This document shows, one piece after another, positions 5,481 through 23,754 of a stretch of DNA of 30,127 nt. A model generated the notes under the pieces. That model saw nothing but the letters and a program-made list of their open reading frames with translations, searched no databases and was not told where the DNA came from. Positions within the stretch are counted from its first letter, which is position 1, and the number at the start of each line of letters is the position of its first letter. The translations under genes and the position numbers were made by a program. The stretch is from a virus, in the IMG/VR virus record IMGVR_UViG_3300031851_000116, positions 1 to 30,127 of that record, one strand, 5' to 3'.

Positions 5481-5918
5481 ATGAAAGATAATATTACTGT
5501 ATGTAGCGGAGCGTTATTCTATGCTCTAAATACCAAACGCTTTTTGTTCTTACACAGAGCTCAAGGGCGTACAGGAAACCTATGGGGATTAGTAGGCGGT
5601 ACTAATGAAAAAGCTGAAACGCCGTGGGAAGGGTTGAAGAGAGAAATCTTTGAAGAAATTGGCACTGTTGAAATTAAAAAAACAATGCCTTTAGAAACGT
5701 TTGTAAGCAATGATACTAACTTTTTATTCCACACTTATCTTTGCGTTGTTAACCAAGAATTTTTACCTAAATTAAATCATGAACATGACGGTTATGCTTG
5801 GGTAAATTTTGGACAATGGCCAAAACCGTTACACAACGGATTAAAGAATACACTCAATAATAAAACTAATCAACGTAAACTTGAAACAGTATTTCGAGTA
5901 ATAGATTTAATGGATTAA
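5481..5918 (+). CDS. Nudix hydrolase
   Basis: 145 aa, a normal size for a single-domain Nudix enzyme. The Nudix box fits the GX5EX7REUXEEXG signature: G40, E46, R54-E55, E58-E59 and G61 (short core REIFEEIG). The glutamates bind the Mg2+ used to hydrolyse a nucleoside diphosphate linked to another group. An N-terminal VCSGALFYAL strand and a downstream HDGYAWVNFGQWP segment complete the fold. The substrate cannot be read from the sequence; NDP-sugars, ADP-ribose, dinucleoside polyphosphates or mutagenic nucleotides are all possible. The gene lies 13 bases after gp15 in the structural unit and has no clear Shine-Dalgarno, so it may depend on translational coupling. Confidence 0.88.
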   Translation: MKDNITVCSGALFYALNTKRFLFLHRAQGRTGNLWGLVGGTNEKAETPWEGLKREIFEEIGTVEIKKTMPLETFVSNDTNFLFHTYLCVVNQEFLPKLNHEHDGYAWVNFGQWPKPLHNGLKNTLNNKTNQRKLETVFRVIDLMD

Positions 5919-5921
5919 TAT

Positions 5922-6284
5922 ATGGAAAATTTACAAAGTGCATCACAAAAAACAGAATGGGGATATGAGTTAGTATGGGCAAGTGCTGAAAATTATGGTG
6001 CAAAAATGCTAGTGTTTACTCAACCTGGAAAGACTCCATTTGCATTTACAAAGAAACAAGAACGTACTTGGTTTATTAATAGCGGTAATATAAAACTACG
6101 CTGGATAGACACTAATAAAGGTCAGTTGTACGAAGCAATTTTAAATGAGGGTCAAACATATCATGTTCCTCCTCATCAACCTGTTAGTATCGAAGCATTG
6201 AGCGGAGAAACTAGTATTACTGAAGTTAACAATGGTACGTTTGAAGATGATAAATGTGTTATACTTAAACCTGAAGGTATATAA
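5922..6284 (+). CDS. Small cupin-fold protein
   Basis: 120 aa. The pattern fits a single beta-barrel cupin: KTEWGYELVWASAENYGAK, then FAFTKKQERTWFINSGNIKLRW (first cupin motif region, split here by QERTW), GQTYHVPPHQPVSIEAL (second motif region) and ITEVNNG. Similar proteins are often labelled mannose-6-phosphate isomerase-like. Metal ligands are only partly present: a histidine pair appears in YHVPPHQP, but the canonical HXH of motif 1 is not visible, so the protein may be non-catalytic or bind a sugar or ligand. It starts 3 bases after the Nudix stop and overlaps the next ATG by one base (TATAATG). Confidence 0.7.
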   Translation: MENLQSASQKTEWGYELVWASAENYGAKMLVFTQPGKTPFAFTKKQERTWFINSGNIKLRWIDTNKGQLYEAILNEGQTYHVPPHQPVSIEALSGETSITEVNNGTFEDDKCVILKPEGI

Positions 6285-9703: not shown

Positions 9704-11005
9704 TTATACCTTATACAAATATGCAACACCGCTATTATCGGCTCCGTCAGCGTCTTCGGCTTTCACGCCAACACACAATCTAGTACTACTCATACTCATT
9801 ACATCACCAAAGTTATCATTATCTACATTACCAAATGCATTTGGATTGTCAATAGTCTTTATTAGTGATCCGTCTGACAAACTAAAAATGTAAACATTTC
9901 CGCTAGACTGACCTGCGGCTGTATCTTCGTCTTGTGCAGCTACCGCACAGTAACTACCATTAATGGCAACTTCTGATCCAAAGTAATCATTATTCACAGT
10001 GTTATATGCATTTGGATTTGATAGTCTTCTAAGTAGTGTCCAAGAACCTCCAGATAACTCGTATATAAATGCATTACCACTATTTGTTCCGTCGATGTCT
10101 TCACCCGGTGCTCCTGCTATAATATAATTTCCGCTTATGTCAACACTATATCCAAATTGGTCAAAGTTATCAGTTCCAATAGCCGGACCATTTGGATTAG
10201 GATTTAAGATTGTTTGTACTGCTCCTGTAGAGTTTGTTATAATATGTATGGCACCACTGTCGCCGCCGCCTGTAGCGCCAGCTGTATTTTCTCTCCAGCT
10301 TCCTACAACTGTGTACGTATCATTCATTGCAAGAGTTTGTACCCGGCCGCCTAATTGATCTCCTGGATATTCATCTTCTCCATCAATATTTGGATTTTTA
10401 ATACTATGTAACAAACTACCGTCACTAGTATCAAATATATAAATCCATCCAGTATCATCACCTATACCAACTTCATCTTCACGTGGTGCTGCAACTGCCG
10501 CATAGTTTTCTGATATAGCTACACTACTACCAAATGCATCACCGTTAGGATTTATTTCTGAAGTTGTAGGATTTGGATTAGCAAGTGTAAACAATAAACT
10601 ACCGTCTGTAATATCAAATATAAATGCTGCACCAGTATCAGTATCTGATCCAACATCTTCTCGTTCTGCACCTGCTATAATATAACTATCACTACATGCA
10701 ACTGCTGTACCAAATTGATCGCCTTCACCTAATCCCGGTGGTGCTGTTGTACTAGGATTATCTATAGTGTATTGTAGTATACCTGCACTATTAAACACAT
10801 AAACTTTACCGTTTTGCGAAGCTGCTGCATCGCTTTCAATACTACCAATAACAGTGTAACTATTATTAACAGCAACGCTACTTGCAAAATAATCATCCTG
10901 TTTTACATCGTATGCATTAGGATTATCAATTTGTTTGATAAACTTAAATTCCGATTGCGGACTACTAAAAAATATGTTACTAGTTAAAGATCCTAAACGA
11001 GGCAT
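9704..11005 (-). CDS. FG-GAP repeat beta-propeller (seven repeats)
   Basis: 433 aa. Seven repeats are each anchored by a D-x-[FL]-[GA] motif: DYFASSVAV, DQFGTAVAC, DAFGSSVAI, DQLGGRVQT, DQFGYSVDI, DYFGSEVAI and DNFGDVMSM. Each is followed by a strand (YTVIGS, YIIAGA, YAAVAA and so on), an acidic Gly-rich loop such as DTDTG or DGTNSG, and a closing strand (VYVFN, AFIFD, WIYIFD, AIHIIT, AFIYEL, VYIFS, VAYLYK). Seven repeats predict one complete seven-bladed propeller like the integrin-alpha head, with Ca2+ likely in the acidic loops. A short MPRLGSLTS leader precedes it. It is probably a virion surface binding module. No signal peptide. It starts 6 bases after the preceding fibre stop. Confidence 0.88.
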   Translation of the reverse strand: MPRLGSLTSNIFFSSPQSEFKFIKQIDNPNAYDVKQDDYFASSVAVNNSYTVIGSIESDAAASQNGKVYVFNSAGILQYTIDNPSTTAPPGLGEGDQFGTAVACSDSYIIAGAEREDVGSDTDTGAAFIFDITDGSLLFTLANPNPTTSEINPNGDAFGSSVAISENYAAVAAPREDEVGIGDDTGWIYIFDTSDGSLLHSIKNPNIDGEDEYPGDQLGGRVQTLAMNDTYTVVGSWRENTAGATGGGDSGAIHIITNSTGAVQTILNPNPNGPAIGTDNFDQFGYSVDISGNYIIAGAPGEDIDGTNSGNAFIYELSGGSWTLLRRLSNPNAYNTVNNDYFGSEVAINGSYCAVAAQDEDTAAGQSSGNVYIFSLSDGSLIKTIDNPNAFGNVDNDNFGDVMSMSSTRLCVGVKAEDADGADNSGVAYLYKV

Positions 11006-11011
11006 TGGCTG

Positions 11012-12481
11012 TTATCCATAGTTTGTATAACCACCTAACACAGTCCATGTTGCACCTACTCTTAATAAAGAGAACGTAATTACGTCTATTGAATTTGCGT
11101 TTCCTGTAGGTACAAGAGCTTCAACCCAATTTATTGTTTGAGCTACTCCATCAATTTGTACTGCATTTGGTATATACGGTGTTGCACCTTGACGTAATAC
11201 AAGAACCACGTTTAATGCTCTATCTGTAGTTGTCGGTACATTAGTTATATTTGCTGTAAAGTTTGATGCAATAGAAGTATGATCAAATATTGCGTTTGCG
11301 CCAAAGTCGTGTGCAACAACTCCAGTTGCTCCTGTTAACGACGATAATATTTCAGATTGTTTTGATATGTTTTCTAATAGTATTCCGTCTGGTGCATCTA
11401 ATGTAATAGTTGAAGCACTATCAAATACTGCTCCGCCTGATCCGCTGTTAGTAAAACTAGGTGTTGTAAGACTTGCAAAAGTTACGCTGTCTGATGTATT
11501 CAAACTTTGATCATATGAGCCACCGCCGCCTCCGCCGCCACCTGTACTATTAATAGTAAGTGTGTTACTAGCTTCGTCAATAGTCATTGTAATATTTGTG
11601 CCAGCTGTAAAGTTTAATGTATCTGATTTTGTAGATGCATCTATACTTTGAGCACCACCTGTAATTTGTACACTACTAAATGTACTAAAATCTGGTACAG
11701 GAGCAGTTGGTTGAACCCATTGACTACTATCGCTATCAGTAATATAAACAAACAGTGAACCTGTTGCACTATCAAACCAAATACTTCCAGCACTTGGTGT
11801 TGAAGGAGGTGTGTCACTTACATCGACACTTGCACCACCGCCGCTACCACTGCCGCCGGTTCCTGGATCAGAAACGGTAATCTCATTACCTTGATTTGTA
11901 TGAAAATGACACCAGTAGTATAAGGTGTCTGGTGCGCTACTTTTAACTGTAAATAAAACTTTTTTTGTTGTAGCAGCTTGAAAATTATCTGTATAGTATC
12001 TCATTGATACAGGATCGTCGTCTAGTAAATAAACTATTCCTGGATTATAATGAGCACCGCCTTCTATTAAGTCTCCATTTGGAGTAGTAGCAAACATTAA
12101 CGGATGCCATAATCCAGCATACGAATTGTTTGTTTCATCTGATTGATCAAATAGATATGTATATCCTCTAACAAAATCTAGTTGAGGTTTTTCTACTCCG
12201 TCAATATAAAATACACCAGTTGCCTGACCATTTACAGTATCAACACCTACAGTAACAGTTTTTTCAAGTAGTGCAACACCAGCATCTGCAAGTTGTTGCG
12301 ATAAATTTCCTGCTGTTAATAATGAAAATCCGCCGGCTTGTTTGCCACTGTATAATCTTAGAGTGTTTGCTTGCTTATCGTAAAAGACTTCACCACTAGC
12401 ACCAACATTTCTATCAAGAAAGTCATCGGGTCTGGGTATAATTCGTATTCTGTCTACTACTGGTGCTGTATTTGATGCCAT
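11012..12481 (-). CDS. Virion fibre-like protein with internal cupredoxin-like domain
   Basis: 489 aa. The N-terminal 75 residues (RIRIIPRPDDFLDRNVGASGEVFYD, then LRLYSGKQAGGF, split by a short linker) resemble a structural attachment module. Residues about 78-203 look like a cupredoxin: GYTYLFDQSD, LWHPLMFATTPNG, then LYYWCHFHTNQGNEITV. His126, Cys191 and His194 match copper ligands, with Gln197 where Met is usual, as in stellacyanin-type sites. Next come a Gly/Ser linker, a strand module (IWFDSATGSLFVYITD), a polyglycine stretch and a fibre-like C-terminal part ending WTVLGGYTNYG. It has its own late-type box upstream, so it probably starts a new transcript after the enzyme cassette. Domain calls are from motif spacing only. 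Confidence 0.8.
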   Translation of the reverse strand: MASNTAPVVDRIRIIPRPDDFLDRNVGASGEVFYDKQANTLRLYSGKQAGGFSLLTAGNLSQQLADAGVALLEKTVTVGVDTVNGQATGVFYIDGVEKPQLDFVRGYTYLFDQSDETNNSYAGLWHPLMFATTPNGDLIEGGAHYNPGIVYLLDDDPVSMRYYTDNFQAATTKKVLFTVKSSAPDTLYYWCHFHTNQGNEITVSDPGTGGSGSGGGASVDVSDTPPSTPSAGSIWFDSATGSLFVYITDSDSSQWVQPTAPVPDFSTFSSVQITGGAQSIDASTKSDTLNFTAGTNITMTIDEASNTLTINSTGGGGGGGGSYDQSLNTSDSVTFASLTTPSFTNSGSGGAVFDSASTITLDAPDGILLENISKQSEILSSLTGATGVVAHDFGANAIFDHTSIASNFTANITNVPTTTDRALNVVLVLRQGATPYIPNAVQIDGVAQTINWVEALVPTGNANSIDVITFSLLRVGATWTVLGGYTNYG

Positions 12482-12503: not shown

Positions 12504-12512
12504 TATTTATCC
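12504..12512 (-). promoter_or_regulatory. Late-promoter-like box upstream of fibre gene
   Basis: GGATAAATA on the minus strand, 22 bases before the ATG at 12481 and just after the stop of the last cassette gene. A GAGGGAATAAC Shine-Dalgarno region follows. It differs from TATAAATA only at the 5' end. Evidence is motif and position only. Confidence 0.45.
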
Positions 12513-12518
12513 GCGAAT

Positions 12519-12740
12519 TTAGAATATTCTTCGGTAGTAATGATCCCAAGTAGCTTTCCAATCTTCGAATGCCTTTACATCAGTAAAATTAATTTGATCT
12601 TTATCATGACTTAATTTAACTTTAAATGCCGCATAGTGCGGATATCGTCTTTGCCAAGCTAAAAAATTTTGATGTGCCATATTACCAACTTTATCTGTCC
12701 TATTTGCGTATGGACAGATTTCAACTCTTATAAATGCCAT
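12519..12740 (-). CDS. Small unknown protein, end of enzyme cassette
   Basis: 73 aa, strongly aromatic and basic: MAFIRVEICPYANRTDKVG, then NFLAWQRRYPHYAAFKVKLSH, then KAFEDWKATWDHYYRRIF. No signal peptide, membrane segment or recognised domain. The AGGAGA Shine-Dalgarno lies inside the last codons of the J-domain gene, and the start overlaps its stop by one base. It may pair functionally with the J-domain protein because the two are tightly coupled. Function unknown. Confidence 0.75.
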   Translation of the reverse strand: MAFIRVEICPYANRTDKVGNMAHQNFLAWQRRYPHYAAFKVKLSHDKDQINFTDVKAFEDWKATWDHYYRRIF

Positions 12741-13003
12741 TAGTTTCTCCTACCATAAGGTCCATATTTGCTACCAAACATTGCCTTAAAAAACTCATCT
12801 GCTGAGTTATTGCTTCTATCTATGTTGCTTGTATTTTTATTTATATTAGATATAAAGCGGTACGCTTCTAATATTTCATTAAACGTTTTAGGATCGCCGC
12901 CTCTATCAGGATGATGTTGCATTGAAAGTTTTCTAAACTTAACTTTTACTTCGTCTTGCGAAGTGGTTGTGCTTACATCTAATATGTCGTAATATCTTTG
13001 CAT
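12740..13003 (-). CDS. Stand-alone J-domain protein (DnaJ-like)
   Basis: 87 aa, essentially only a J domain. RYYDILDVSTTTSQDEVKVKF and RKLSMQHHPDRGGDPKTF show helices I-II and the diagnostic HPD at residues 31-33, followed by the helix III segment NEILEAYRFISN. The domain would stimulate the ATPase of a host or phage Hsp70. No zinc finger, Gly/Phe region or substrate-binding domain is present; the tail is Asn/Ser-rich and ends GRRN. A phage J protein could recruit host DnaK to fold or assemble a virion or enzyme component. It lies 7 bases after the preceding stop, in the same operon. Confidence 0.9.
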   Translation of the reverse strand: MQRYYDILDVSTTTSQDEVKVKFRKLSMQHHPDRGGDPKTFNEILEAYRFISNINKNTSNIDRSNNSADEFFKAMFGSKYGPYGRRN

Positions 13004-13015
13004 ATAGTATTTACT
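13004..13015 (-). promoter_or_regulatory. Possible late-type box before J-domain gene
   Basis: AGTAAATACTAT on the minus strand overlaps the stop codon of the preceding gene and ends at the J-domain ATG. Its TAAATACTAT part is identical to that upstream of the gp13-like gene. It lies too close to the start to leave a leader, so it may be only compositional. Confidence 0.2.
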
Positions 13016-13775
13016 TCCATTTGTATGTTTTCAATTTAGATGCATTTGTTATCCATTTGTTATCTATTGTTGCAGCACGTAACCTCAAATTATCTATATC
13101 GTTTTTGTTATACTCTCTTACTATAGCGTCTACTTCGTGTTTTTTTACAAGTATGTATTGACATAACGGAGTACCTGCAGGTATTATAATTTCATCATTT
13201 AATGAATGCCAAAATATCTGTACATTCAAAAAATTAGGACCAAAATCAGGATCTAAAAATCCTATACTTGCAGTAAAATCTTTATTATCAGGATACGGTA
13301 TAGGCATGCTCATTAAGTAGTAACCTTTAGGAATATATGCTACCCACGGTGATTGTATTTTAATAATTGTTTTTAAACTATTAGGATCCGGATTAAAAGT
13401 TGCATAAAGTTCTTCTGGATGTTGGTTAACATATGGCCAAGTCCAAGTATGATCAGCATCAACTCTGCTTTGGTCAATTGGAGTTGTCCAGCTAAAACTT
13501 TTCCCGTCACCGTTTGTTTTGATTGCAATATCTTGCCAAGATTTTTGTATCCATCCAGTTTTTTGAATTTGATTTATTCCTGGACACCTTGTAATATGGC
13601 TAAATCTTTGCGTTATATTTTTTGATTGTTGTCGTATATCTTTATAATCTTGAACTGCCTTTTTAACCCAATCAAACTTAACATTAGTAGTTGGTTCTAT
13701 AGGCATAAGCTGTGTTACTTCTGGAAGTAAACTAACAAATTCTAGTTTAGGTTTTTTCTTAAAGATATTAAACAT
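13011..13775 (-). CDS. Unknown protein, paralogue A (DUF6065-like pattern)
   Basis: 254 aa. It starts MFNIFKKKPKLEFVSLLPEV and shares its whole layout with the gene at 14187-14933: a KKKP-x-[IL]-E-F start, a CPGI motif, GWIQKSWQDIAIKTNGDGKSF, SPWVAYIPKGYYLMSMP, a FLDPDF segment, a NVQIFWHSLN strand and PAGTPLCQYILVKK near the C terminus. The order (P-x-G strand, a D-P strand, a W strand, an AGTPLC-type motif) recalls DUF6065-type proteins, a beta-rich family of unknown function; that link is tentative. No signal peptide. It overlaps the upstream 139-aa gene by 8 bases. Membership of the same operon as oxygenases and a halogenase suggests a part in that pathway. Confidence 0.8.
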   Translation of the reverse strand: MFNIFKKKPKLEFVSLLPEVTQLMPIEPTTNVKFDWVKKAVQDYKDIRQQSKNITQRFSHITRCPGINQIQKTGWIQKSWQDIAIKTNGDGKSFSWTTPIDQSRVDADHTWTWPYVNQHPEELYATFNPDPNSLKTIIKIQSPWVAYIPKGYYLMSMPIPYPDNKDFTASIGFLDPDFGPNFLNVQIFWHSLNDEIIIPAGTPLCQYILVKKHEVDAIVREYNKNDIDNLRLRAATIDNKWITNASKLKTYKWK

Positions 13776-14187
13776 ACATTGTTGCTTTATACTTTTTATC
13801 TAATTCATTTAATTGTTCGTCTCGTGCTAAAGACCATGATAAAATATTATCAACATGTATTACAAATGCATCTCTTTCAGGCATAGATATTAGTCTTACA
13901 TATTGGTCTTCTAAAACTTCTTCGCCGTTAATTGTTTCAGGTGTTAACGGAGTATCTTCCCATTCATAATTTTCAAATCCAACTCGTGTTGCTACTCTAC
14001 GTATCTTTTCATTTTCTTGGTTAATGTATTCTATCATAACTTCACGTGACTCAGTTACAGTGTTTAACCAATGTATGTGCTTATGTCTATCTTTTTGTAC
14101 TTTTCTTGCTGTGTATTCATCTTTTGCTTCTCTTAGAGATTGAGAATACGTTACAAAATCATCAGTGTTAGTTTCGCTTAATGGCAT
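13768..14187 (-). CDS. Unknown protein between two paralogues
   Basis: 139 aa, charged and mainly helical at the N terminus (SQSLREAKDEYTARKVQKDR, HIHWLNTVTESREVMIEYIN), then a short strand region (QYVRLISMPERDAFVIHVDN) and a C-terminal helix ending KYKATMYV. No recognised domain, signal or membrane segment. It sits between paralogues A and B, with TAATG coupling upstream and an 8-base overlap downstream, which points to a joint function, perhaps a complex. The AGGAGA Shine-Dalgarno lies in the final Arg-Arg-Asn codons of paralogue B. Confidence 0.8.
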   Translation of the reverse strand: MPLSETNTDDFVTYSQSLREAKDEYTARKVQKDRHKHIHWLNTVTESREVMIEYINQENEKIRRVATRVGFENYEWEDTPLTPETINGEEVLEDQYVRLISMPERDAFVIHVDNILSWSLARDEQLNELDKKYKATMYV

Positions 14188-14933
14188 TAGTTTCTCCTAA
14201 AGTGTTTGTTGTACATATTTTTTAATAATGCTTTGTTTACTTTAAATCCGTGAATTTGAAAGTATGTTCTTTTTTCAAACCATTTTAAATCGTGTTCAGT
14301 TGCATCTCTAACTTCGTAATCATATGACTCTTCAGTTAACGGAATTAAATGTGCAAGTGCGTGTCCTGCTTTTAATTGTTTCTCGCCTCTTTTAACATTC
14401 CAATATCCTTGGACATTTAATTCTGTACTATAACTTGGATCGAGTATTCCTGTTGATGCTTCAAATTCGTATGTATCTGTATATGCTACTGCTGTCATTA
14501 AGAATTTCATACCCTTTGGTGCAATTACATTCCAAGGTGTATTAAACTTCATTATAGGTGCAATACTTTGTGGGCGTTTTGGTAAAAACTTTGTAATATT
14601 ATATGGATGGGTACCTACTGGATCGCCTTTTAACATATCACTTAGTATTTCACTTGGATGCACATAACCAAAGGCTTCGTTTTCGCCTTCTGTTTTTATA
14701 ACAGTGTCGTGCCATAAAGGGATTATAAAGCCGTGTTTATATAAATCAAATATTCCAGGGCATTGTTGTAAATGGCTAGGCACTCTATAATTCTTTGTTC
14801 TAATGTAATCTTCTTTACATGCTTTCATCCATCTCGGTGAAAACTTACTTGCTGGAATAATAGGATAAGTGTCAGCAATACCCGGTACTTTACTAAAAAA
14901 TTCTATTTTTGGTTTTTTCTTTTTAAAGAACAT
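14187..14933 (-). CDS. Unknown protein, paralogue B (DUF6065-like pattern)
   Basis: 248 aa, the sister of the gene at 13011-13775. Shared features in order: MFFKKKKPKIEFFSKVPGI, CPGIFDLYKHGFIIPLWHD, IKTEGENEAFGYVHP, TPWNVIAPKGMKFLMTAVAY, GILDPSY, NVQGYWNVKRGE and KAGHALAHLIPLTEE. The two proteins have diverged clearly but keep the same length and motif order, so they come from an old duplication. A 139-aa gene now separates them. The KKKKP start is basic with no signal peptide. The tentative link to DUF6065-type proteins rests on the P-G strand / D-P strand / W strand / AG-x-x-L pattern. It begins 3 bases after the oxygenase stop. Enzymatic activity is not evident. Confidence 0.8.
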   Translation of the reverse strand: MFFKKKKPKIEFFSKVPGIADTYPIIPASKFSPRWMKACKEDYIRTKNYRVPSHLQQCPGIFDLYKHGFIIPLWHDTVIKTEGENEAFGYVHPSEILSDMLKGDPVGTHPYNITKFLPKRPQSIAPIMKFNTPWNVIAPKGMKFLMTAVAYTDTYEFEASTGILDPSYSTELNVQGYWNVKRGEKQLKAGHALAHLIPLTEESYDYEVRDATEHDLKWFEKRTYFQIHGFKVNKALLKNMYNKHFRRN

Positions 14934-14936
14934 AAA

Positions 14937-15506
14937 TTACCTATAGTTAAAATTTATTGCTACTCTTCTAGGAGTAGATGTTGGAGTTGTACTAGCATGA
15001 TATGTTAGACCATTAAAAATAATTAGTTTATTTTCTTCTGGAGTGCTTGTAGTATTGACTGTTAAATCTATTTTATCTTTGTAATCTTTTGAATTAACAC
15101 CAGATGTTAAATCATATTTTTCATTATATATTATAGTATCACCATCAGAGTCGTTTAGATATAGTATACCAGTTTTATGCTCTTCTTGCCAGTCAGTGTG
15201 TGGCTCATGTTTTATTGGCTCAGCTGTTGCTGTTATTAGGCCAATACGTATTCTAGTAAACAGTTCTATCGGTTCGTTTACAGCATCTAATGCGCCGATT
15301 AAGCAACTTTCAACTAACTGGGCTATCTGACTTCCAATTGAGCCTTCTTGAGTAACCATATGAAACCAACTAAAATCCATTATTTCAGGATTGTGATTTT
15401 CATATGCTGTATATTCACTAAAATACCACGGAGTACTGCCTGCTAGAACTTCGTGTTGTAACCTTTTAAACAAGGTTGGCGATACTGCATTTTTATAAGT
15501 TTTCAT
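14937..15506 (-). CDS. Putative 2OG-Fe(II) oxygenase
   Basis: 189 aa. The iron triad can be placed: His103 and Asp105 in EPHTDWQ and His170 in GLTYHAS, with Arg180 or Arg181 ten or so residues later as the 2-oxoglutarate ligand. The GILYLNDSDGD strand and KLIIFNGLTYHA core fit the jelly-roll of the prolyl-hydroxylase-like superfamily, which uses Fe(II), O2 and 2-oxoglutarate to hydroxylate a substrate. The N terminus MKTYKNAVSPTLFKRL is the usual start of these short phage enzymes. The substrate is not predictable. It is directly abutted (no gap) by the second oxygenase gene upstream. Confidence 0.82.
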   Translation of the reverse strand: MKTYKNAVSPTLFKRLQHEVLAGSTPWYFSEYTAYENHNPEIMDFSWFHMVTQEGSIGSQIAQLVESCLIGALDAVNEPIELFTRIRIGLITATAEPIKHEPHTDWQEEHKTGILYLNDSDGDTIIYNEKYDLTSGVNSKDYKDKIDLTVNTTSTPEENKLIIFNGLTYHASTTPTSTPRRVAINFNYR

Positions 15507-16082
15507 TTATGTTACCTGTATACTAAACGCTAAATTAATGCGCTGTCTTTCTGATTCATTTCTAAGCACTTCATGAGGAACCCATCCTGGCCATAAAAAT
15601 AATTCACCGTCTGCTGGATATACTAAAGAATCTCGCACAAAAGGACTTCGTGGACTACAATTATTAAGTAAGTTTGCAGGATTGATAAATTTTAATGGGC
15701 CTGTGTCTTTTCCCTGTACATAATACACACAGGTAAAACTATCAGCAACGTGAGAATGAGTAACGTTGCGGCTGTTAGGTTCGTTTACATTTGTCCAATA
15801 ATCTAATAATATTTTTCTCTCAGGTACATTATCTTTAAATGTACTATCGTGTGCAAAATAATGATCACATGCATGTGCAGTAAGATCTCTTATAAAATTT
15901 GTAAGCCATTCTATGTTGTCATAGGTAGTATTACTTCTCCAACAATTATCATTATTCATTAGCATAGGTGAAGTGTCATTATCTTTTGCTTCAAGGATCT
16001 GTTTTTTTAGATCATTAATTTGCTCTGGGGTTCCAATTTTTTCTACAAAAAAATCTGATTTAAATTGTGTCACACGTTCCAT
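15507..16082 (-). CDS. Second putative 2OG-Fe(II) oxygenase
   Basis: 191 aa from the ATG at 16080-16082 (MERVTQF). A frame opening four codons earlier uses TTG and is less likely. Motifs fit the phage 2OG-Fe(II) oxygenase type: NVTHSHVADSFTCVYYVQG carries the proximal histidines (His109 and/or His111 in this numbering), and GELFLWPGWVPHEVLRN carries the distal His170, with Arg181 in RQRINLAF as the likely 2-oxoglutarate ligand. PLKFINPANLL is also typical. It differs clearly from the neighbouring oxygenase, so they are not a recent duplication. The start overlaps the 3' end of the halogenase gene by 13 bases. Probable hydroxylase; substrate unknown. Confidence 0.8.
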   Translation of the reverse strand: MERVTQFKSDFFVEKIGTPEQINDLKKQILEAKDNDTSPMLMNNDNCWRSNTTYDNIEWLTNFIRDLTAHACDHYFAHDSTFKDNVPERKILLDYWTNVNEPNSRNVTHSHVADSFTCVYYVQGKDTGPLKFINPANLLNNCSPRSPFVRDSLVYPADGELFLWPGWVPHEVLRNESERQRINLAFSIQVT

Positions 16083-17575
16083 TTTTTGTACCAATCTTCT
16101 AAAAATTCATAGTGATTTGGAAATGTTTCTTTTGCTTTATCTACACGAAACGTTTGTGTATCAGTAAAATATTTTAGATATGTTTTTTCGTCTTCACTTA
16201 AATTTGGATTATAATCTGCGTATCCGCCACCTGCATGTATCATACTCCACCATTGTACACTACTAAACATACTCTGTGGACTATAAAATATAAAATCTTG
16301 CGGGATTGGATAATATGCACTTATCATTTGTTGTGCAAAAGGTGGTAGGTCATTTAAATTTAATTCACGGACTGCCTTCCAATACGGAGTATCATCTTTG
16401 TTACTAAAATAATAATGAGCAAAAACAAATGATAATATTTCAATATTCATTTCGTAGAACCCTTGGTTCATGCTATCACGCATTTGATCATTCCAAGTTC
16501 CGTTACCCATGTTTAATAGTTCACATAGTGAAGTAACCGTTGCAGTTGTAAATGTAATTCCTGTTGCTTCTAATGGTTCAACAAACCCAGCAGCAAGTCC
16601 AATACCTACAACATTTTTTATTGCTACTTCTTTGTGTGTTCCGCATTTCATAGTTAAATGATTAGCCGGAGCATCGTACTCACCTATTGAGTCTCTTAAT
16701 TCTTTTTCAGCTTCTTCTGGAGTTATAAAATCTGAACTATACACATAGCCGTTTCCTATTCTATGAAATGTAGGGATCGTCCAACGCCATCCACTAGTCA
16801 TAGCAGTTGCTTTAGTATAAGGATGACATTCATCTTTAGGATTAGTATATTGTGTTGGTATAGCAACAGCACTATCGTTTAATAACCAAGGTTTATAACT
16901 AATAAATTCTGCACCTAGTGTCTTTTCTAATAACGCACTTTTGAATCCACTACAGTCAAGATATAAGTCTGCTGTGTATTCATTTTTATCAGAATCAATT
17001 AGTTTACTAATGCCCTGCATACCTTTAGCAACTTGGGTAATCTTTGTGTCTACATATGTTATCTTATCTAGTATAATATCTTTTATAGTTGCAATAATAT
17101 CATATGCACTAAAATGTACAGCACCGTAACCATCTGGTCCAGTATTAAAATTACTATCTAACTCAGGACTTAACTTAGGACTTACGTTTGCTTTTGCTAA
17201 TCTATATGCAGGATGCCATTTTGCAAATTCACTATAAGGTTTATCGGCAAAATATTTATTTGCATAAAGATGCGGAGCTGCTACTGTATTATTAACATTG
17301 TCGTTGTCAACAAAATACGGCTCATTATTCCATCCGTCTAATTCAACTCCGTACTTGAATGCTGCATTACTAGGTTTCATCCAGTGGTGTGCTTCAATTC
17401 CGCATGCATATAAAAATTTTGCTGTTAACGGTTGAGTACCTTCTCCAACACCAATTGGACCTGCACTTGCATCTTCAATTAACGTAATCTTAGTATCAGT
17501 TTTTAAATTATTAACAAGGTATGCGGCTGACAACCAACCACTTGTTCCGCCTCCAAAAATTATTATATTATTCAT
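16070..17575 (-). CDS. Flavin-dependent halogenase (tryptophan halogenase family)
   Basis: 501 aa, full length for the family. FAD-binding GGGTSGW lies at residues 8-14. The catalytic lysine equivalent is Lys74 in AAFKYGVELDGW. The diagnostic W-x-W-x-I-P motif is at 263-268 (WRWTIP), and AAGFVEPLEATGI holds the conserved glutamate segment. These enzymes use reduced flavin, O2 and halide to make a Lys-bound halogenating species. Phage members are known; VirX1 from cyanophage Syn10 is a characterised viral halogenase with a preference for iodide. No flavin reductase is seen here, so host reductases would have to supply FADH2. The start overlaps the stop of the upstream fusion gene (TAATG). Substrate unknown; free tryptophan is not implied by the name. 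Confidence 0.93.
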   Translation of the reverse strand: MNNIIIFGGGTSGWLSAAYLVNNLKTDTKITLIEDASAGPIGVGEGTQPLTAKFLYACGIEAHHWMKPSNAAFKYGVELDGWNNEPYFVDNDNVNNTVAAPHLYANKYFADKPYSEFAKWHPAYRLAKANVSPKLSPELDSNFNTGPDGYGAVHFSAYDIIATIKDIILDKITYVDTKITQVAKGMQGISKLIDSDKNEYTADLYLDCSGFKSALLEKTLGAEFISYKPWLLNDSAVAIPTQYTNPKDECHPYTKATAMTSGWRWTIPTFHRIGNGYVYSSDFITPEEAEKELRDSIGEYDAPANHLTMKCGTHKEVAIKNVVGIGLAAGFVEPLEATGITFTTATVTSLCELLNMGNGTWNDQMRDSMNQGFYEMNIEILSFVFAHYYFSNKDDTPYWKAVRELNLNDLPPFAQQMISAYYPIPQDFIFYSPQSMFSSVQWWSMIHAGGGYADYNPNLSEDEKTYLKYFTDTQTFRVDKAKETFPNHYEFLEDWYKKWNV

Positions 17576-19296
17576 TATATTTCTATTACGACCTCTTCTT
17601 CAATTTTAGATGTTTGTTCTACTTTATTAATAACAACAATATAAAGTCCGTTCCACCAACTGTTACTGTCTTCAACATCACATAACAGTAATTTTTCATA
17701 TCCTACTTCTGCACCTATTGCATTAATGCCTTTTCTTGCGCCTTCAACAACTCCGTCCCAGTTTGCGTCATCGAAAATTAAAACTGCTTCTTGTGAGAAA
17801 GATGATGCATAATACTCAACAGCTCTAGCAGTTGATAATGCATCGTGAGGTCCGTCATAGAACCACATGTTTATCTTGTCTTTATATGCTGATAAATTTA
17901 CACTAAAGATATCTTTATTAATAACATCAATTTTATTATCACCTTTGAATCTTTTTGCATTTTCAATAAACGATACACGATCATTTGTAGGTAATTTTTC
18001 TCTACCAAGTTCTTGTGGTTGTATATTTTCATGCCATTTATCAATTGCAATAGCGTGTAAGTTGTTGTCTTTAATTGCTCCAAAGAAAGTTGCTCCTTGT
18101 GCAGTACCAACTTCCATGTATGTTTCAACACCTTGTGCAATGTTATTTAAAACTGTCTGTACTCTACTACTAGTTAACCCTGGAACATCTATCTTAACTG
18201 TAGGAATACCTGATTTAATTATGCTATCTGATGTATGTTTAACTAAATTAGTGTGAACAATTTTAGATTTAACTTTGTAAATATCATCACAAAAATGACA
18301 TTCCCAACAATCAAATTTACAGTTGCGAATTTTCTTACGCCAAGCATTAATAGGTTTTTCTTGTAAATTATTTGCTTCTAAATAATTGTTAAAGTTATCA
18401 TAAAGTATTTCGTCACCATTGGCCCAACGTTTAACAATATCCATAGTTTCATATAGTCTACTAATTGCTTCACGTCCGTGCATTTTAAACACGTCAATAC
18501 CAAGATTATCTAAAAACTCTTGCCAGTCTTCTCTCCACGGAGGAATATTTGCTGTCTTTAAATGTACACTAGGATCGTCCACGTCCCATTTTGGACAACT
18601 TACTCTACTAATAGGATTGTAAAAGTATTGCGGATCGGTGCCTTCGCGTGTATTGTTATATTCAAAATGTTCTACCATCATTGGACAATTACCTAAGCAT
18701 CCTTCGTTTGCTAGTAAACTATAATGAATATCTTTTCCTAAATTTTCCTTAATCCAAACTTTTGCTTCAACTAATCTTTTTAACGTATCAGTATCACGCA
18801 TTAAATCTCTATCAAGATTTATGTAATTAAATCCACGTTTTGCTAAATTTACAATTTCAGCTGCAACTCTAACATCACGTAGTATTGTATTCTTTACATA
18901 CAATTCTGGAAATGCTTTTTGTATTTGGCCTGTTGCCATCCAATGCGTATGTGGAATAGTAGCAGTACGTACACCTTTATCATATAGAGGTTTAAAGTTT
19001 TTTATAAATGTATCTAAATTCTTTTGGGTAGGAGGAACTTGTATATTATTAAATGTAGCACTTACAGGAACACCGGTATGTGTTTGTACAAACAAAGCCT
19101 GCTTAATTGCTACATCATTTGAATCTTCGTGTACAAAGACATCGCCCATTGCATCTTGATTAAACGGTGCAATTCTAGTTGTAAAGTACACATCTTTAAT
19201 GTAATCTTTGTAATCATTTACAAAATTAACAAACTCTATGTATTGCTGTTCGTTTAGTTTAGGGTTTAAAGGTATACTAAATATTTTCTGTGTCAT
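17575..19296 (-). CDS. U32-like / Cys-cluster / SAM methyltransferase fusion
   Basis: 573 aa with three parts. Residues 1-300 resemble the U32 (YhbU/UbiU-type) fold: LLANEGCLGNCPMMVEHF carries Cys200 and Cys204, and VSCPKW carries Cys234. Residues 326-336 form a compact cluster C-x3-C-x2-C-x2-C (NCKFDCWECHFC). U32 relatives such as UbiU/UbiV bind a 4Fe-4S cluster and take part in O2-independent hydroxylation. Residues about 390-560 are a class I SAM methyltransferase: YMEVGTAQGATF is motif I, MWFYDGPHD and VLIFDDANWDG are later strands. It is the first gene of the enzyme operon. Both the fusion and its place beside a halogenase and oxygenases are unusual. Cluster binding and substrate are inferred. 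Confidence 0.8.
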   Translation of the reverse strand: MTQKIFSIPLNPKLNEQQYIEFVNFVNDYKDYIKDVYFTTRIAPFNQDAMGDVFVHEDSNDVAIKQALFVQTHTGVPVSATFNNIQVPPTQKNLDTFIKNFKPLYDKGVRTATIPHTHWMATGQIQKAFPELYVKNTILRDVRVAAEIVNLAKRGFNYINLDRDLMRDTDTLKRLVEAKVWIKENLGKDIHYSLLANEGCLGNCPMMVEHFEYNNTREGTDPQYFYNPISRVSCPKWDVDDPSVHLKTANIPPWREDWQEFLDNLGIDVFKMHGREAISRLYETMDIVKRWANGDEILYDNFNNYLEANNLQEKPINAWRKKIRNCKFDCWECHFCDDIYKVKSKIVHTNLVKHTSDSIIKSGIPTVKIDVPGLTSSRVQTVLNNIAQGVETYMEVGTAQGATFFGAIKDNNLHAIAIDKWHENIQPQELGREKLPTNDRVSFIENAKRFKGDNKIDVINKDIFSVNLSAYKDKINMWFYDGPHDALSTARAVEYYASSFSQEAVLIFDDANWDGVVEGARKGINAIGAEVGYEKLLLCDVEDSNSWWNGLYIVVINKVEQTSKIEEEVVIEI

Positions 19297-19317: not shown

Positions 19318-19356
19318 AAAAAAAGGTGTTACTATGTACTTATAATAACACCTTTT
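19318..19356 (-). terminator. Intrinsic terminator with promoter-like loop
   Basis: AAAAGGTGTTA (19321-19331) and TAACACCTTTT (19346-19356) form a perfect 11-bp stem with a 14-base loop. Read on the minus strand the hairpin runs into seven T residues (19324-19318), a good rho-independent terminator for the two-gene unit ending at 19376. The plus-strand reading also ends in TTTT, so it may be bidirectional. The minus-strand loop contains TATAAGTA (19337-19344), one base from the late box TATAAATA, suitably placed to drive the enzyme operon starting at 19296. Confidence 0.75.
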
Positions 19357-19375
19357 CTATAATTTGTAAAGCGAT

Positions 19376-20785: not shown

Positions 20786-21826
20786 TTAATCTCTCCAACT
20801 CATCGTTGCTGAACTTTGTCCATTTACGCCTTTTGCATTAAGACTTGATCCGCCTCTAACACTCTGTCTTGTAGCATAAACAAACTTAGCAGAGTCAACA
20901 ACGTGGTTACCTTGATACCAACCAACAGCATAACCCCAATCTTGGCCTGCGATCATATTTTCTTCGCCGCCATAGTAACTCTTGCCACCAATAACATCTT
21001 TAGTTTGATCATTATAGAAGTTAGTTTCTCTCCAGTTTGTACTAGGATTACGTTCTCTTCCTCCTACCATATTAGCATGCTTAAACATCATACAGTGTTG
21101 GTGTTTGTCACCTTGTGGGCTTGTTGCGCCACGACTATATGGAGTTTCTGATGACCATTTAAATCCTTGGTTTGGATTTTCACACCAAATACCATAATTT
21201 TCGTGTTGTATACCCCAAGTACCACCACTTGTTCCTGAACTACCTTGCTGTGCTCCTAGTGTTTGTGTAACCATGTCAAAGTATCTAATTTGACTACTAT
21301 TACCTCCAGTGATCCACGCTTTAGTCATTTCAGGATTTTGTATCATTCCTGGATTATTAGTTGACCAAGTAAATGTTCTAGTATAACCACTTGTGTAGTT
21401 ATTTTCAGTTCTATGATTATATGCTGTAATACCGTTGTTGTTAGCACAGTGTGCGTTAGCAGCTCCGCCAAATGTCCAACAGTTATTTACATCATGACAA
21501 CTATCTTTATAGTTATGTCCACGTTCTTGTTTACCAGCTAGATCAATTGTAGTATCTGTTGCAAAGGTAACTCTATTAGTTTCGTCCCAAACAACACTAC
21601 TAGCATATCCGCCATGTATATAACCTGTGGTAATAATTTGTCTTGATAAAAATGGCTGTACCATTGCAGTCCAATGTCCGCCGCCGCTTTGTGATTGGTA
21701 TACTTCTATCTTACCATCTCGTCCGTTAAATCTTAATGCACCGTTAGTACCTGCGCCAGAAGTAGTATTACCGGGTAATGTTAAGTGACCAGTGTCATTA
21801 ATATTTGTATTTTTAAGCGTTGCCAT
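20786..21826 (-). CDS. Tail-fibre-like protein with Kelch-like region (short paralogue)
   Basis: 346 aa. The first 20 residues (MATLKNTNINDTGHLTLPGN) are a tag shared with the two upstream genes. GALRFNGRDGKIEVYQ follows, a common fibre linker. The rest has repeats of about 50 residues with paired GG/GA motifs and alternating strands (YIHGGYASSVVWDETNR, CWTFGGAANAHCANNNG, AWITGGNSSQIRYFD, GIQHENYGIWCENP), consistent with a Kelch-like propeller. The C terminus is SATMSWRD. It is a paralogue of the C-terminal half of the next gene. It overlaps that gene's stop by one base (TAATG). Likely a virion surface recognition protein. Confidence 0.78.
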   Translation of the reverse strand: MATLKNTNINDTGHLTLPGNTTSGAGTNGALRFNGRDGKIEVYQSQSGGGHWTAMVQPFLSRQIITTGYIHGGYASSVVWDETNRVTFATDTTIDLAGKQERGHNYKDSCHDVNNCWTFGGAANAHCANNNGITAYNHRTENNYTSGYTRTFTWSTNNPGMIQNPEMTKAWITGGNSSQIRYFDMVTQTLGAQQGSSGTSGGTWGIQHENYGIWCENPNQGFKWSSETPYSRGATSPQGDKHQHCMMFKHANMVGGRERNPSTNWRETNFYNDQTKDVIGGKSYYGGEENMIAGQDWGYAVGWYQGNHVVDSAKFVYATRQSVRGGSSLNAKGVNGQSSATMSWRD

Positions 21827-23754
21827 TAGTTATCTCTCCATCCTACTGATCCTGAACTAGAACCTGCTTTTCCTTTTGGTTCAAGTGTATAACCCTTTTC
21901 AGCGCCAGTTTCAGTATAAAAATCCCATCTAAAAGAACCGTTGTTTTGTGAACCATTATACTCGCCTAAGCAATATGCATGATCCTGACCACTACCGTAA
22001 TTTTCTTCACCACAGTTTCCTCTTGGTTTATTATAAGATCCACTAGTTGTTCTTGTTATAAAGTTAGTTCTACGGAAAGCATATCCACCATTATAACTTC
22101 CGTTTGTACCTGCCCAGCAATAGTTAAGTTTACTTGGTATTGATTTTTGTTGTGGGTGATTTGATGGCTGTGTTCCGCTCCAAGATGTATATGTTTCTGT
22201 AGCAAAGTTCCACATTCTACTGTCATTTGACCAATAAAATAGTCCTTCATTTTCCCAACTCATTCCCCACATGTCTGTTGTAGAACCTGCTGGTAATCCT
22301 TGTCCTGTTGTTGCTTGCTCTGTCATAAAGTTAAAGCGTGTTAAGTTACTACCACCTGTTGCCCATGCCATATAATGCTCTTTATAAGTACCACCGTCAC
22401 GTAGTCTATTACCGTCCATTGTTCTAGTAAATGTACCAGTATACTGTTGTTCAGTACGCATGTTATATCCAATAATATAATTAGACTGTACAGCGTGTCC
22501 ATTACCTGCACCAAAAATAAAGTGTACGTGTTTTGAACATGCACCCCATTGATAGTTAAATGATCTTTCTAAACTGTTGTCACCTAAGTTAATTGTACTA
22601 TCAGTTGCGTGTGTACATCTATTTACATTGTTCCATGCACTAGATGATTTGTAACCGCCACACATATATGAAAATTCTATTATTTGTCGTTCTTTAAATG
22701 GTAACGTCAATGTTTGCCAAGATCCTGCATTATCTAATACTTCTGCAGATCCTGTATCAGTGTTCATTCTAAGTGCGCCTGATGCTGACTCGTTAACAGG
22801 TGATGCTGCATTGTGCCTTACAATTACAATACCTGATCCGCCATTACCGCCATAGTTGTTGGAGTTATAGTGAGATCCACCACCTCCACCGCCACCAGTG
22901 TTTGCTCCTGCGTTACCACCTGGTGTTTGTGCCCAAGTACTAGTACCGCCACCGCCGCCACCGTTGCCGTTATTATATCCTCTGCCGCCGAATGTTGTGC
23001 CAACAGCGCCACCGCCGCCTCCACCAATTCCGCCGTCTCCGCCGATGCCTTGATAGCCTGAGCCACCTCCGCCACCGCCCCAATAAATTATTGAACCAGT
23101 TATATCGTTTGCAACTCCGTCACCACCGTGACCTGGTGCAGCTTGTCCTGGTGAGCCAGCTCCGCCGCCTCCTCCTGGATACCATCTAGTTACTGTTGAC
23201 CATGCTCCGTCGTGTCCTTCTCCCGGATATATACTCTTGCCTCTATTACCGCCACCGTAGCCCGAACTAGTTGCTGGAAAGTCTTGGTTACCTCTACCAC
23301 CACTTGCTCCGCCACCACTTGCTCCGTCTGCTGCTGGTGCGCCTGAACCATCATGTCTCGATGCTCCGCCTCCGCCACCGTGTGCTGTAATTGAACCAAA
23401 TACTGAGTTACTACCACTAGAACCTCTTACTCGCCCTTGTCCTGCTGGTGCGCCAACTCCACCGCCACCAACTGTAACTGATATAGTTTCGCCCGGTGTT
23501 GTTGGGTAATTAGCAGTATATCTAACTCCACCTGCGCCGCCTCCGCCGCCCATGTCAGAGCCGCCACCGCCTCCTCCACCAACTACTAATACTTCAACAC
23601 TATTTACATTTGCTGGAACTGTCCATTGACTAGTACTTACACTTGTAAAATACACTAGAGTTCCTGCAGCTGAACTAAGCCGTTGTGCTGTAGTACCAAC
23701 TGGTAAGGATAAGTAACCTGTGTCGTTAATTGTTGTATTTCTAAGTATTGCCAT
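21826..23754 (-). CDS. Tail-fibre-like protein: glycine-rich insert plus Kelch-like region
   Basis: 642 aa. The tag MAILRNTTINDTGYLSLPVG is followed by a strand module (WTVPANVNSVEVLVVGG), then about 270 residues dominated by Gly runs of up to seven (VGGGGGGGSDMGGGGGAGG). Such Gly-rich domains are known in phage adhesins, where they form polyglycine-II-type surfaces. From about residue 325 it resumes with GALRMNTDTGSAEV and a Kelch-like region (YMCGGYKSSSAWNNVNR, HFIFGAGNGHA, AWATGGSNLTRFN) matching the 346-aa paralogue, ending SVGWRDN. So the gene looks like the short paralogue with a Gly-rich insert. A GATAATAACTAATG junction precedes it. Probable host-binding fibre. Confidence 0.8.
   Translation of the reverse strand: MAILRNTTINDTGYLSLPVGTTAQRLSSAAGTLVYFTSVSTSQWTVPANVNSVEVLVVGGGGGGGSDMGGGGGAGGVRYTANYPTTPGETISVTVGGGGVGAPAGQGRVRGSSGSNSVFGSITAHGGGGGASRHDGSGAPAADGASGGGASGGRGNQDFPATSSGYGGGNRGKSIYPGEGHDGAWSTVTRWYPGGGGGAGSPGQAAPGHGGDGVANDITGSIIYWGGGGGGSGYQGIGGDGGIGGGGGGAVGTTFGGRGYNNGNGGGGGGTSTWAQTPGGNAGANTGGGGGGGSHYNSNNYGGNGGSGIVIVRHNAASPVNESASGALRMNTDTGSAEVLDNAGSWQTLTLPFKERQIIEFSYMCGGYKSSSAWNNVNRCTHATDSTINLGDNSLERSFNYQWGACSKHVHFIFGAGNGHAVQSNYIIGYNMRTEQQYTGTFTRTMDGNRLRDGGTYKEHYMAWATGGSNLTRFNFMTEQATTGQGLPAGSTTDMWGMSWENEGLFYWSNDSRMWNFATETYTSWSGTQPSNHPQQKSIPSKLNYCWAGTNGSYNGGYAFRRTNFITRTTSGSYNKPRGNCGEENYGSGQDHAYCLGEYNGSQNNGSFRWDFYTETGAEKGYTLEPKGKAGSSSGSVGWRDN

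Follow-up and report, generated by a model that had tools for sequence, protein, structure and literature searches.

Reports of halogenases and of large sets of 2-oxoglutarate (2OG) oxygenases in marine phages go back to the early cyanophage genomes; such genes are usually classed as auxiliary metabolic genes with no substrate assigned. In the cultured cyanophages syn9, Syn10, S-CREM1, P-TIM40 and S-RIM44, one or more halogenases, a phrog_7084 homologue and several 2OG oxygenases lie directly after fibre genes; in S-CREM1, a glycine-rich fibre-like protein is followed by a halogenase, a phrog_7084 homologue (named 'triphosphate nucleotidohydrolase') and a run of 2OG/JmjC genes. One enzyme of this type, VirX1 of Syn10, is described as halogenating many small aromatics in vitro (PMC8407142). 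Here we analyze a cluster of this kind in a 30,127-base IMG/VR fragment of a T4-like marine phage (record IMGVR_UViG_3300031851_000116; this whole stretch is called the window). Nine open reading frames (ORFs) at 12519-19296, referred to below as the cassette, include a halogenase, phrog_7084 and 2OG genes beside fibre genes and thus qualify as a cyanophage-type halogenase/2OG tail-fibre cluster. The cassette is real, conserved and under-described; clusters of its kind are already visible in cultured cyanophages, and its chemistry is putative.

Compared with the cyanophage clusters, the cassette differs in several ways. Its halogenase is ~30% identical to theirs, and they often contain two halogenases or many 2OG genes. 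The clusters of syn9, P-TIM40 and S-RIM44 lack the first cassette gene, which is predicted to join a cysteine-containing TIM-barrel domain to a methyltransferase (TIM/Cys-methyltransferase). VirX1 (PDB 6QGM) belongs to the same family as the cassette halogenase (E=4e-57), shares its catalytic Lys and Glu and likewise comes from a T4-like marine phage, but it is distant, the syn9/Syn10 halogenases being 30% identical to that of the cassette. The TIM/Cys-methyltransferase fusion (phrog_1458) is itself present at the tail-fibre loci of S-H25 and S-RIM2 (46-47% identity); in S-H25, however, no halogenase follows, and the gene overlaps its upstream neighbor instead of having its own promoter. Two modules, each known from cultured cyanophages, are therefore joined and extended in the clade to which the window belongs.

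To assess conservation, we used as relatives the best 80 among the 197 first-gene candidates in IMG/VR; genes were counted in the 74 loci that extend 6.5 kb or more downstream of the first gene. These are the closest relatives, with some near-duplicates and some short contigs among them, and since they share descent their counts are not independent events. The halogenase is present in 68/74 loci, an OG1-family 2OG oxygenase in 67/74, the paralogue A family in 59/74 and the 139-aa gene in 49/74, and the remaining members are more variable (paralogue B and g73 in 22/74 each, the J-domain gene in 12/74 and OG2 in 6/74). The order first gene - (2OG) - halogenase - OG1 - A - 139 aa - (B) - (J) - g73 - fibre is nearly always kept, with a median gap of -4 between adjacent matched genes, and the run often ends at a tail-fibre gene. 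The core set and its order are retained down to 54% first-gene identity; the exact nine-gene set including OG2 is rarer, and it is the core that forms the stable part.

In the window itself, all nine tightly packed minus-strand genes described in an earlier note on this DNA are present at their ORF coordinates, with gaps between neighbors of at most 7 bases. Single-nucleotide overlaps occur at 17575, 14187 and 12740, the halogenase and OG1 (which has a TTG start) overlap by 25 nt, and the remaining junctions are, in order, 0, 3, an 8-nt overlap and 7. The nine-gene run is real and evolutionarily stable. The earlier note took such coupling to imply joint function, and within the clade this is well supported by the conserved order, the tight packing and a composite promoter-terminator of the cassette's own. 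It also suggested searching marine phage genomes for the same set and order, and the core of both recurs in ~70 relatives. What it singled out as notable, the complete set as one operon, stands as a fixed arrangement of an uncultured clade, less so as a new kind of cluster given the cyanophage examples.

The closest isolate matches are distant (~47% identity in the first gene, 26-35% in the halogenase), and among 50,697 phage records, of cultured phages or otherwise, nothing matches the 139-aa protein; the clade therefore appears to have no isolate among those records. The psbA gene, typical of T4-like cyanophages, was not found in 14 relative records (47-246 kb, which may be fragments), and the hosts may not be cyanobacteria. 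The more distant relatives L043, L053, L063, L064 and L083 carry extra halogenase copies a few kb past the cassette, and some of these copies are on the other strand.

Independent occurrence of the genes at unrelated loci in related phages would speak against a joint function. Such separation is not seen within the clade and is found outside it only. S-H25 and six contigs carry the first gene without a halogenase behind it, overlapping the preceding tail-cluster gene. Elsewhere the halogenase adjoins DNA polymerase (L096), recombination genes (S-B64) or psbA (S-MbCM6), and in Pelagibacter phage HTVC008M it lies between terminase genes. Because its parts occur separately outside the clade, the gene set is modular.

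The first gene is predicted to encode a TIM-barrel domain with seven invariant Cys fused to a class I S-adenosylmethionine (SAM) methyltransferase. The Cys residues (200, 204, 234, 326, 330, 333 and 336) and the SAM-site residues G397, G401, D419 and D481 are conserved in 38/38 relatives. The methyltransferase domain matches PF13578 (Methyltransf_24) above the Pfam cut-off (E=9e-7), and an AlphaFold model of the protein (pLDDT 82) matches generic TIM barrels and class I methyltransferases. A fusion of peptidase U32 with a methyltransferase had been proposed for this gene. The methyltransferase part of that proposal holds, but the U32 part finds neither a profile nor a fold match: no U32 family (PF01136) was hit in Pfam or NCBIfam at E<0.1, and comparison with a three-sequence U32 profile gave hhalign P=0.06. 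PDB sequence searches with profiles of the first gene, paralogue A and OG2 returned nothing convincing.

Stand-alone relatives of the N-terminal domain, 39-44% identical and with most Cys kept, occur in metagenome-assembled genomes (MAGs) of Campylobacterota and Syntrophaceae. Two of these bacterial genes (L109, L111) are immediately followed by genes for TolC, a C39-like ABC transporter and HlyD, and a third (L112) adjoins DUF6445 and a radical-SAM/SPASM protein. These neighborhoods are suggestive, though not decisive, of a secreted protein or peptide as substrate, and the three loci may represent an undescribed protein-modification system. Other relatives have differing contexts, with sulfate-assimilation genes (L108/L110) or CRISPR type III genes (L113). 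Two further MAG contigs, L106 (PBPE01000072.1, labelled Dehalococcoidia) and L107 (DANB01000001.1, Euryarchaeota), carry a phage-type first gene together with phage-type tail-cluster genes and are probably misbinned phage DNA.

The halogenase, 2OG oxygenase, J-domain and methyltransferase calls of the earlier note were borne out by Pfam matches, below the cut-off in the case of OG2, and its pairing of paralogues A and B by a shared phrog_7084 match. By family match and motif, the second gene is a putative flavin-dependent halogenase: it matches PF04820 (Trp_halogenase, E=4e-88) and contains GGGTSG (GxGxxG), K74, W263-R-W265-T-I-P268 and E333/E336, with K74, W263, P268, E333 and E336 invariant in 32/32 relatives. 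OG1 and OG2 likewise have the profile match and metal/2OG residues expected of 2OG-Fe(II) oxygenases. OG1 matches PF13759 (2OG-FeII_Oxy_5) above the cut-off (E=3e-13) and has HxH..H..R in 27/27 relatives, His replacing Asp; OG2 matches PF13640 (2OG-FeII_Oxy_3) below the Pfam cut-off (E=4e-5), with the full HxD..H..R site in 15/15. The J-domain protein matches PF00226 (DnaJ, E=2e-14). The name 'DNA endonuclease V', attached to OG2 through PHROG, was rejected as a naming error in view of the 2OG-Fe(II) oxygenase Pfam match. Members of phrog_274 and cyanophage genes named 'denV / DNA endonuclease V' (~163-184 aa; window 14937-15506, L146:16273-16821, L152:8441-8995 and L153:10440-10931) match 2OG-Fe(II) oxygenase Pfam families as well, and the endonuclease label thus seems to be an annotation error that has spread.

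Paralogue A (E=6e-44) and paralogue B (E=8e-41) each match phrog_7084, and the two share 31% identity. The model of paralogue A, which has high confidence, matches dUTPases and dCTP deaminases (Foldseek best E=2e-4, prob 1.0; best TMt ~0.6-0.68), and a dUTPase-like fold is thus predicted. A single profile comparison with 17 bacterial dUTPases gave hhalign P=0.007 but an HHsuite probability of only 5.5%; its alignment pairs GILDPSYSTEL with GTIDADYRGEI and AGHALAHLIP with RGMRLAQMIV (paralogue/dUTPase). The resemblance to trimeric dUTPase (PF00692) therefore comprises the predicted fold and the alignment of GxLD and AGxPL positions with the dUTPase GTID and GxRxAQ. In contrast, the paralogues are longer, the phosphate-binding motif II (PRSG) is absent from both, with a PIPYPD-like sequence in its place, and the C-terminal glycine-rich motif V (GGFG-type) is not present. 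They probably have no dUTPase activity. A distant phrog_7084 homologue, gp35 of Haloarcula virus HCTV-8 (L143:8848-9681), lies near class II ribonucleotide reductase and tail-fibre genes.

A terminator had been noted upstream of the cassette, and one was indeed found in the 79 bases 5' of the first gene: a 15-bp hairpin with a T-run (19319-19356; arms 19356-19342/19335-19321; -20.2 kcal/mol, z=-4.55). A promoter overlaps it, with a -35 TTTACA (19370-19365), a 17-bp spacer and a TG-extended -10 TATTAT (19347-19342) in the left arm of the hairpin. Before the first gene, the best sigma70 score averages 9.48 over 58 distinct relatives, against 7.95 for shuffled sequence, and a strong extended -10 is found there in 23/58, compared with 0-4 for nine other gene families. 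The hairpin arms co-vary with pairing kept (GGTGC/GCACC in L013, GATGC/GCATC in L017). When 1.47 Mb of flanking loci were scanned for promoters inside terminator hairpins, 22 matches emerged. Sixteen are immediately 5' of the first gene, one belongs to the window, three are the same hairpins on the reverse strand and two are stray; mononucleotide-shuffled versions of the first 40 loci contained 2. Within these 1.47 Mb the composite element is nearly unique to the site before the first gene. It resembles the PeSL motifs of T4-like phages (Comeau 2014, as cited in PMC4503421) in placing a host-type early promoter and a stem-loop terminator at a module border, but it is nearly single-copy in the flanking loci, whereas PeSLs are, according to that citation, densely packed in regions of intense shuffling.

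In cyanophages, transcription of early genes is believed to rely on sigma70-like promoters and the host polymerase in unmodified form, and that of late genes on NATAAATA (PMC2984593). Before ORF starts in the relatives' loci, the canonical late box ATAAATA is enriched 20-fold, and it lies upstream of the fibre gene that follows the cassette in 37-45/76, the range depending on motif and stretch scanned, yet before the first gene it is found in 0/58 distinct relatives. A late promoter for the cassette was accordingly rejected, and the late-type box claimed in the earlier note was not upheld: what is found is a TAAGTA variant overlapping the sigma70-type -10, in 28/58 relatives and in the window as TATAAGTA at 19337-19344. 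Because of this overlap, a mixed early/late mode is possible, as proposed for RB49 and S-PM2 (PMC2984593). The promoter findings speak against mere co-expression of the cassette with the late fibre genes and suggest early timing.

Table 1 Features of the cassette and its borders in the window.
Feature	Coordinates	Strand	Remark
Composite promoter-terminator	19319..19370	-	Upstream of first gene
Predicted TIM-barrel/Cys domain + class I SAM methyltransferase (first gene, phrog_1458)	17575..19296	-	
Putative flavin-dependent halogenase (PF04820, phrog_2928)	16070..17575	-	
Putative 2OG-Fe(II) oxygenase OG1 (PF13759)	15507..16094	-	Invariant HxH...H...R
2OG-Fe(II) oxygenase-like OG2 (phrog_274)	14937..15506	-	HxD...H...R; variable member
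Paralogue A (phrog_7084), predicted dUTPase-like fold	14187..14933	-	Model pLDDT 94
139-aa protein, no assigned function	13768..14187	-	
Paralogue B (phrog_7084)	13011..13775	-	dUTPase-like fold assigned via homology to A
J-domain protein, 87 aa	12740..13003	-	
73-aa conserved protein (g73)	12519..12740	-	Aromatic-rich
T4-type late box ATAAATA	12504..12510	-	Precedes next fibre gene (11012-12481); end of cassette unit

Besides the cassette, the window encodes a head-tail adaptor, a tail sheath stabiliser, a baseplate-fibre connector and several fibre/adhesin genes. The fibre locus also includes a subtilase-family protein (PF00082, 8148-9695) and an FG-GAP repeat protein (9704-11005). A 642-aa protein (21826-23754; 23% glycine, with a poly-glycine stretch) resembles glycine-rich phage adhesins. 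Plus-strand Nudix-like and cysteine-dioxygenase-like genes (5481-5918 and 5922-6284) follow the tail-sheath-stabiliser-like gene.

Taken together, we tentatively favor, at somewhat less than an even chance, the view that the cassette is a self-contained accessory operon that modifies a protein, with the phage's own adhesin or fibre proteins as the first candidate. The operon would have been inserted between adhesin/tail-fibre genes of a marine T4-like phage clade. From its anatomy, transcripts arriving from upstream genes are predicted to stop at the hairpin, and cassette mRNA is predicted to start in the hairpin loop from the host-type sigma70 extended -10, so that the hairpin could not form in it and the terminator would be escaped. 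The translationally coupled enzymes may then act on one target, the flavin halogenase adding halogen, one or both 2OG oxygenases hydroxyl, and the C-terminal domain of the TIM/Cys fusion methyl groups. The dUTPase-fold proteins would serve as binding or scaffold partners, and the J-domain protein may help to present the target, presumably side chains of a protein and by first choice those of phage adhesin or fibre proteins made later. The gene set and its order, the conserved residues, the predicted folds and the promoter-terminator layout are shown here; in this scheme we infer the early timing, the enzyme activities, the common target and the protein nature of the substrate. Protein tailoring is favored because the module remains within the adhesin genes across the clade and recurs there in cyanophages, because a J-domain protein is present, and because bacterial relatives of the first enzyme adjoin secretion and peptide-modification genes. 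The S-CREM1 arrangement behind a glycine-rich fibre-like protein and the overlap of the first gene with a tail-cluster gene in S-H25 and six contigs are further points in favor of a protein target. The narrower statement, that the phage halogenates, hydroxylates and methylates residues of its own adhesins or fibres with enzymes made in advance from the early-type promoter within the terminator, is possible but doubtful. Several points weigh against the favored view: the fibres flanking the cassette contain no collagen-like repeats, and no collagen-like candidate substrate was seen nearby save for one glycine-rich stretch in 21826-23754; in other phages the halogenase is also found away from fibre genes; the dUTPase-like fold could be a sign of nucleotides; and the early expression that the promoter suggests is at least as compatible with host takeover as with virion modification.

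The early-type promoter is the main reason for keeping host-directed readings in consideration. The enzymes could, early in infection, make or alter a small molecule of the host such as an amino acid, pigment, quinone or signalling compound. A sigma70-type promoter and the absence of the canonical late box would agree with this, as would the broad activity of VirX1 on small aromatics, for which the natural substrate is unknown (PMC8407142), and the literature reads cyanophage halogenases as antibiotic or metabolite genes (PMC2984593; PMC9964418). We nonetheless consider a small-molecule module rather unlikely, as the cassette contains no transporter or dedicated biosynthetic gene and remains in the fibre locus across the clade, and J-domain and dUTPase-fold proteins would be unexpected in it. 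Takeover of the host by hydroxylation, methylation or halogenation of ribosomal or other host proteins, or of RNA, would also suit the early-type promoter, and hydroxylation of ribosomal proteins by 2OG oxygenases is known in bacteria (from a reference given in PMC9602691). However, it leaves the constant residence among adhesin genes unexplained, and no RNA-binding domain was found; we regard it as improbable.

Modification of nucleotides or DNA, with dUTPase-fold proteins sorting nucleotides on which the oxidative enzymes act, would account for the top fold matches of paralogue A and for the position of the HCTV-8 homologue near a ribonucleotide reductase. It seems very improbable in view of the replacement of PRSG, the missing glycine-rich motif and a location in the fibre region, distant from replication genes. 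Loose hitch-hiking, in which functionally unrelated accessory genes gather behind a single mobile promoter-terminator and share no target, would suit the variable presence of OG2, the J-domain gene, paralogue B and g73, and the link between composite promoter-terminator motifs and gene shuffling in T4-like phages (as cited in PMC4503421), but it is hardly credible for a halogenase, OG1 and paralogue A core that retains order and active sites over deep divergence and for a halogenase that recurs with phrog_7084 and 2OG genes in cyanophages at ~30% halogenase identity.

As far as we have found, the joined TIM/Cys-methyltransferase, the dUTPase-like fold predicted for phrog_7084 and the promoter-in-terminator, which separates the cassette from late fibre expression, are new. 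Fixed partners, a fixed location and a promoter of its own narrow the substrate question for this group of enzymes. If a metabolite or host protein is modified, the early-type promoter indicates the time at which to look. If instead fibres are the target, this would explain why the enzymes are located at tail-fibre genes and would add halogenation to the possible changes in receptor binding; modification of the phage's own adhesins would amount to an undescribed post-translational maturation of viral receptor-binding proteins.

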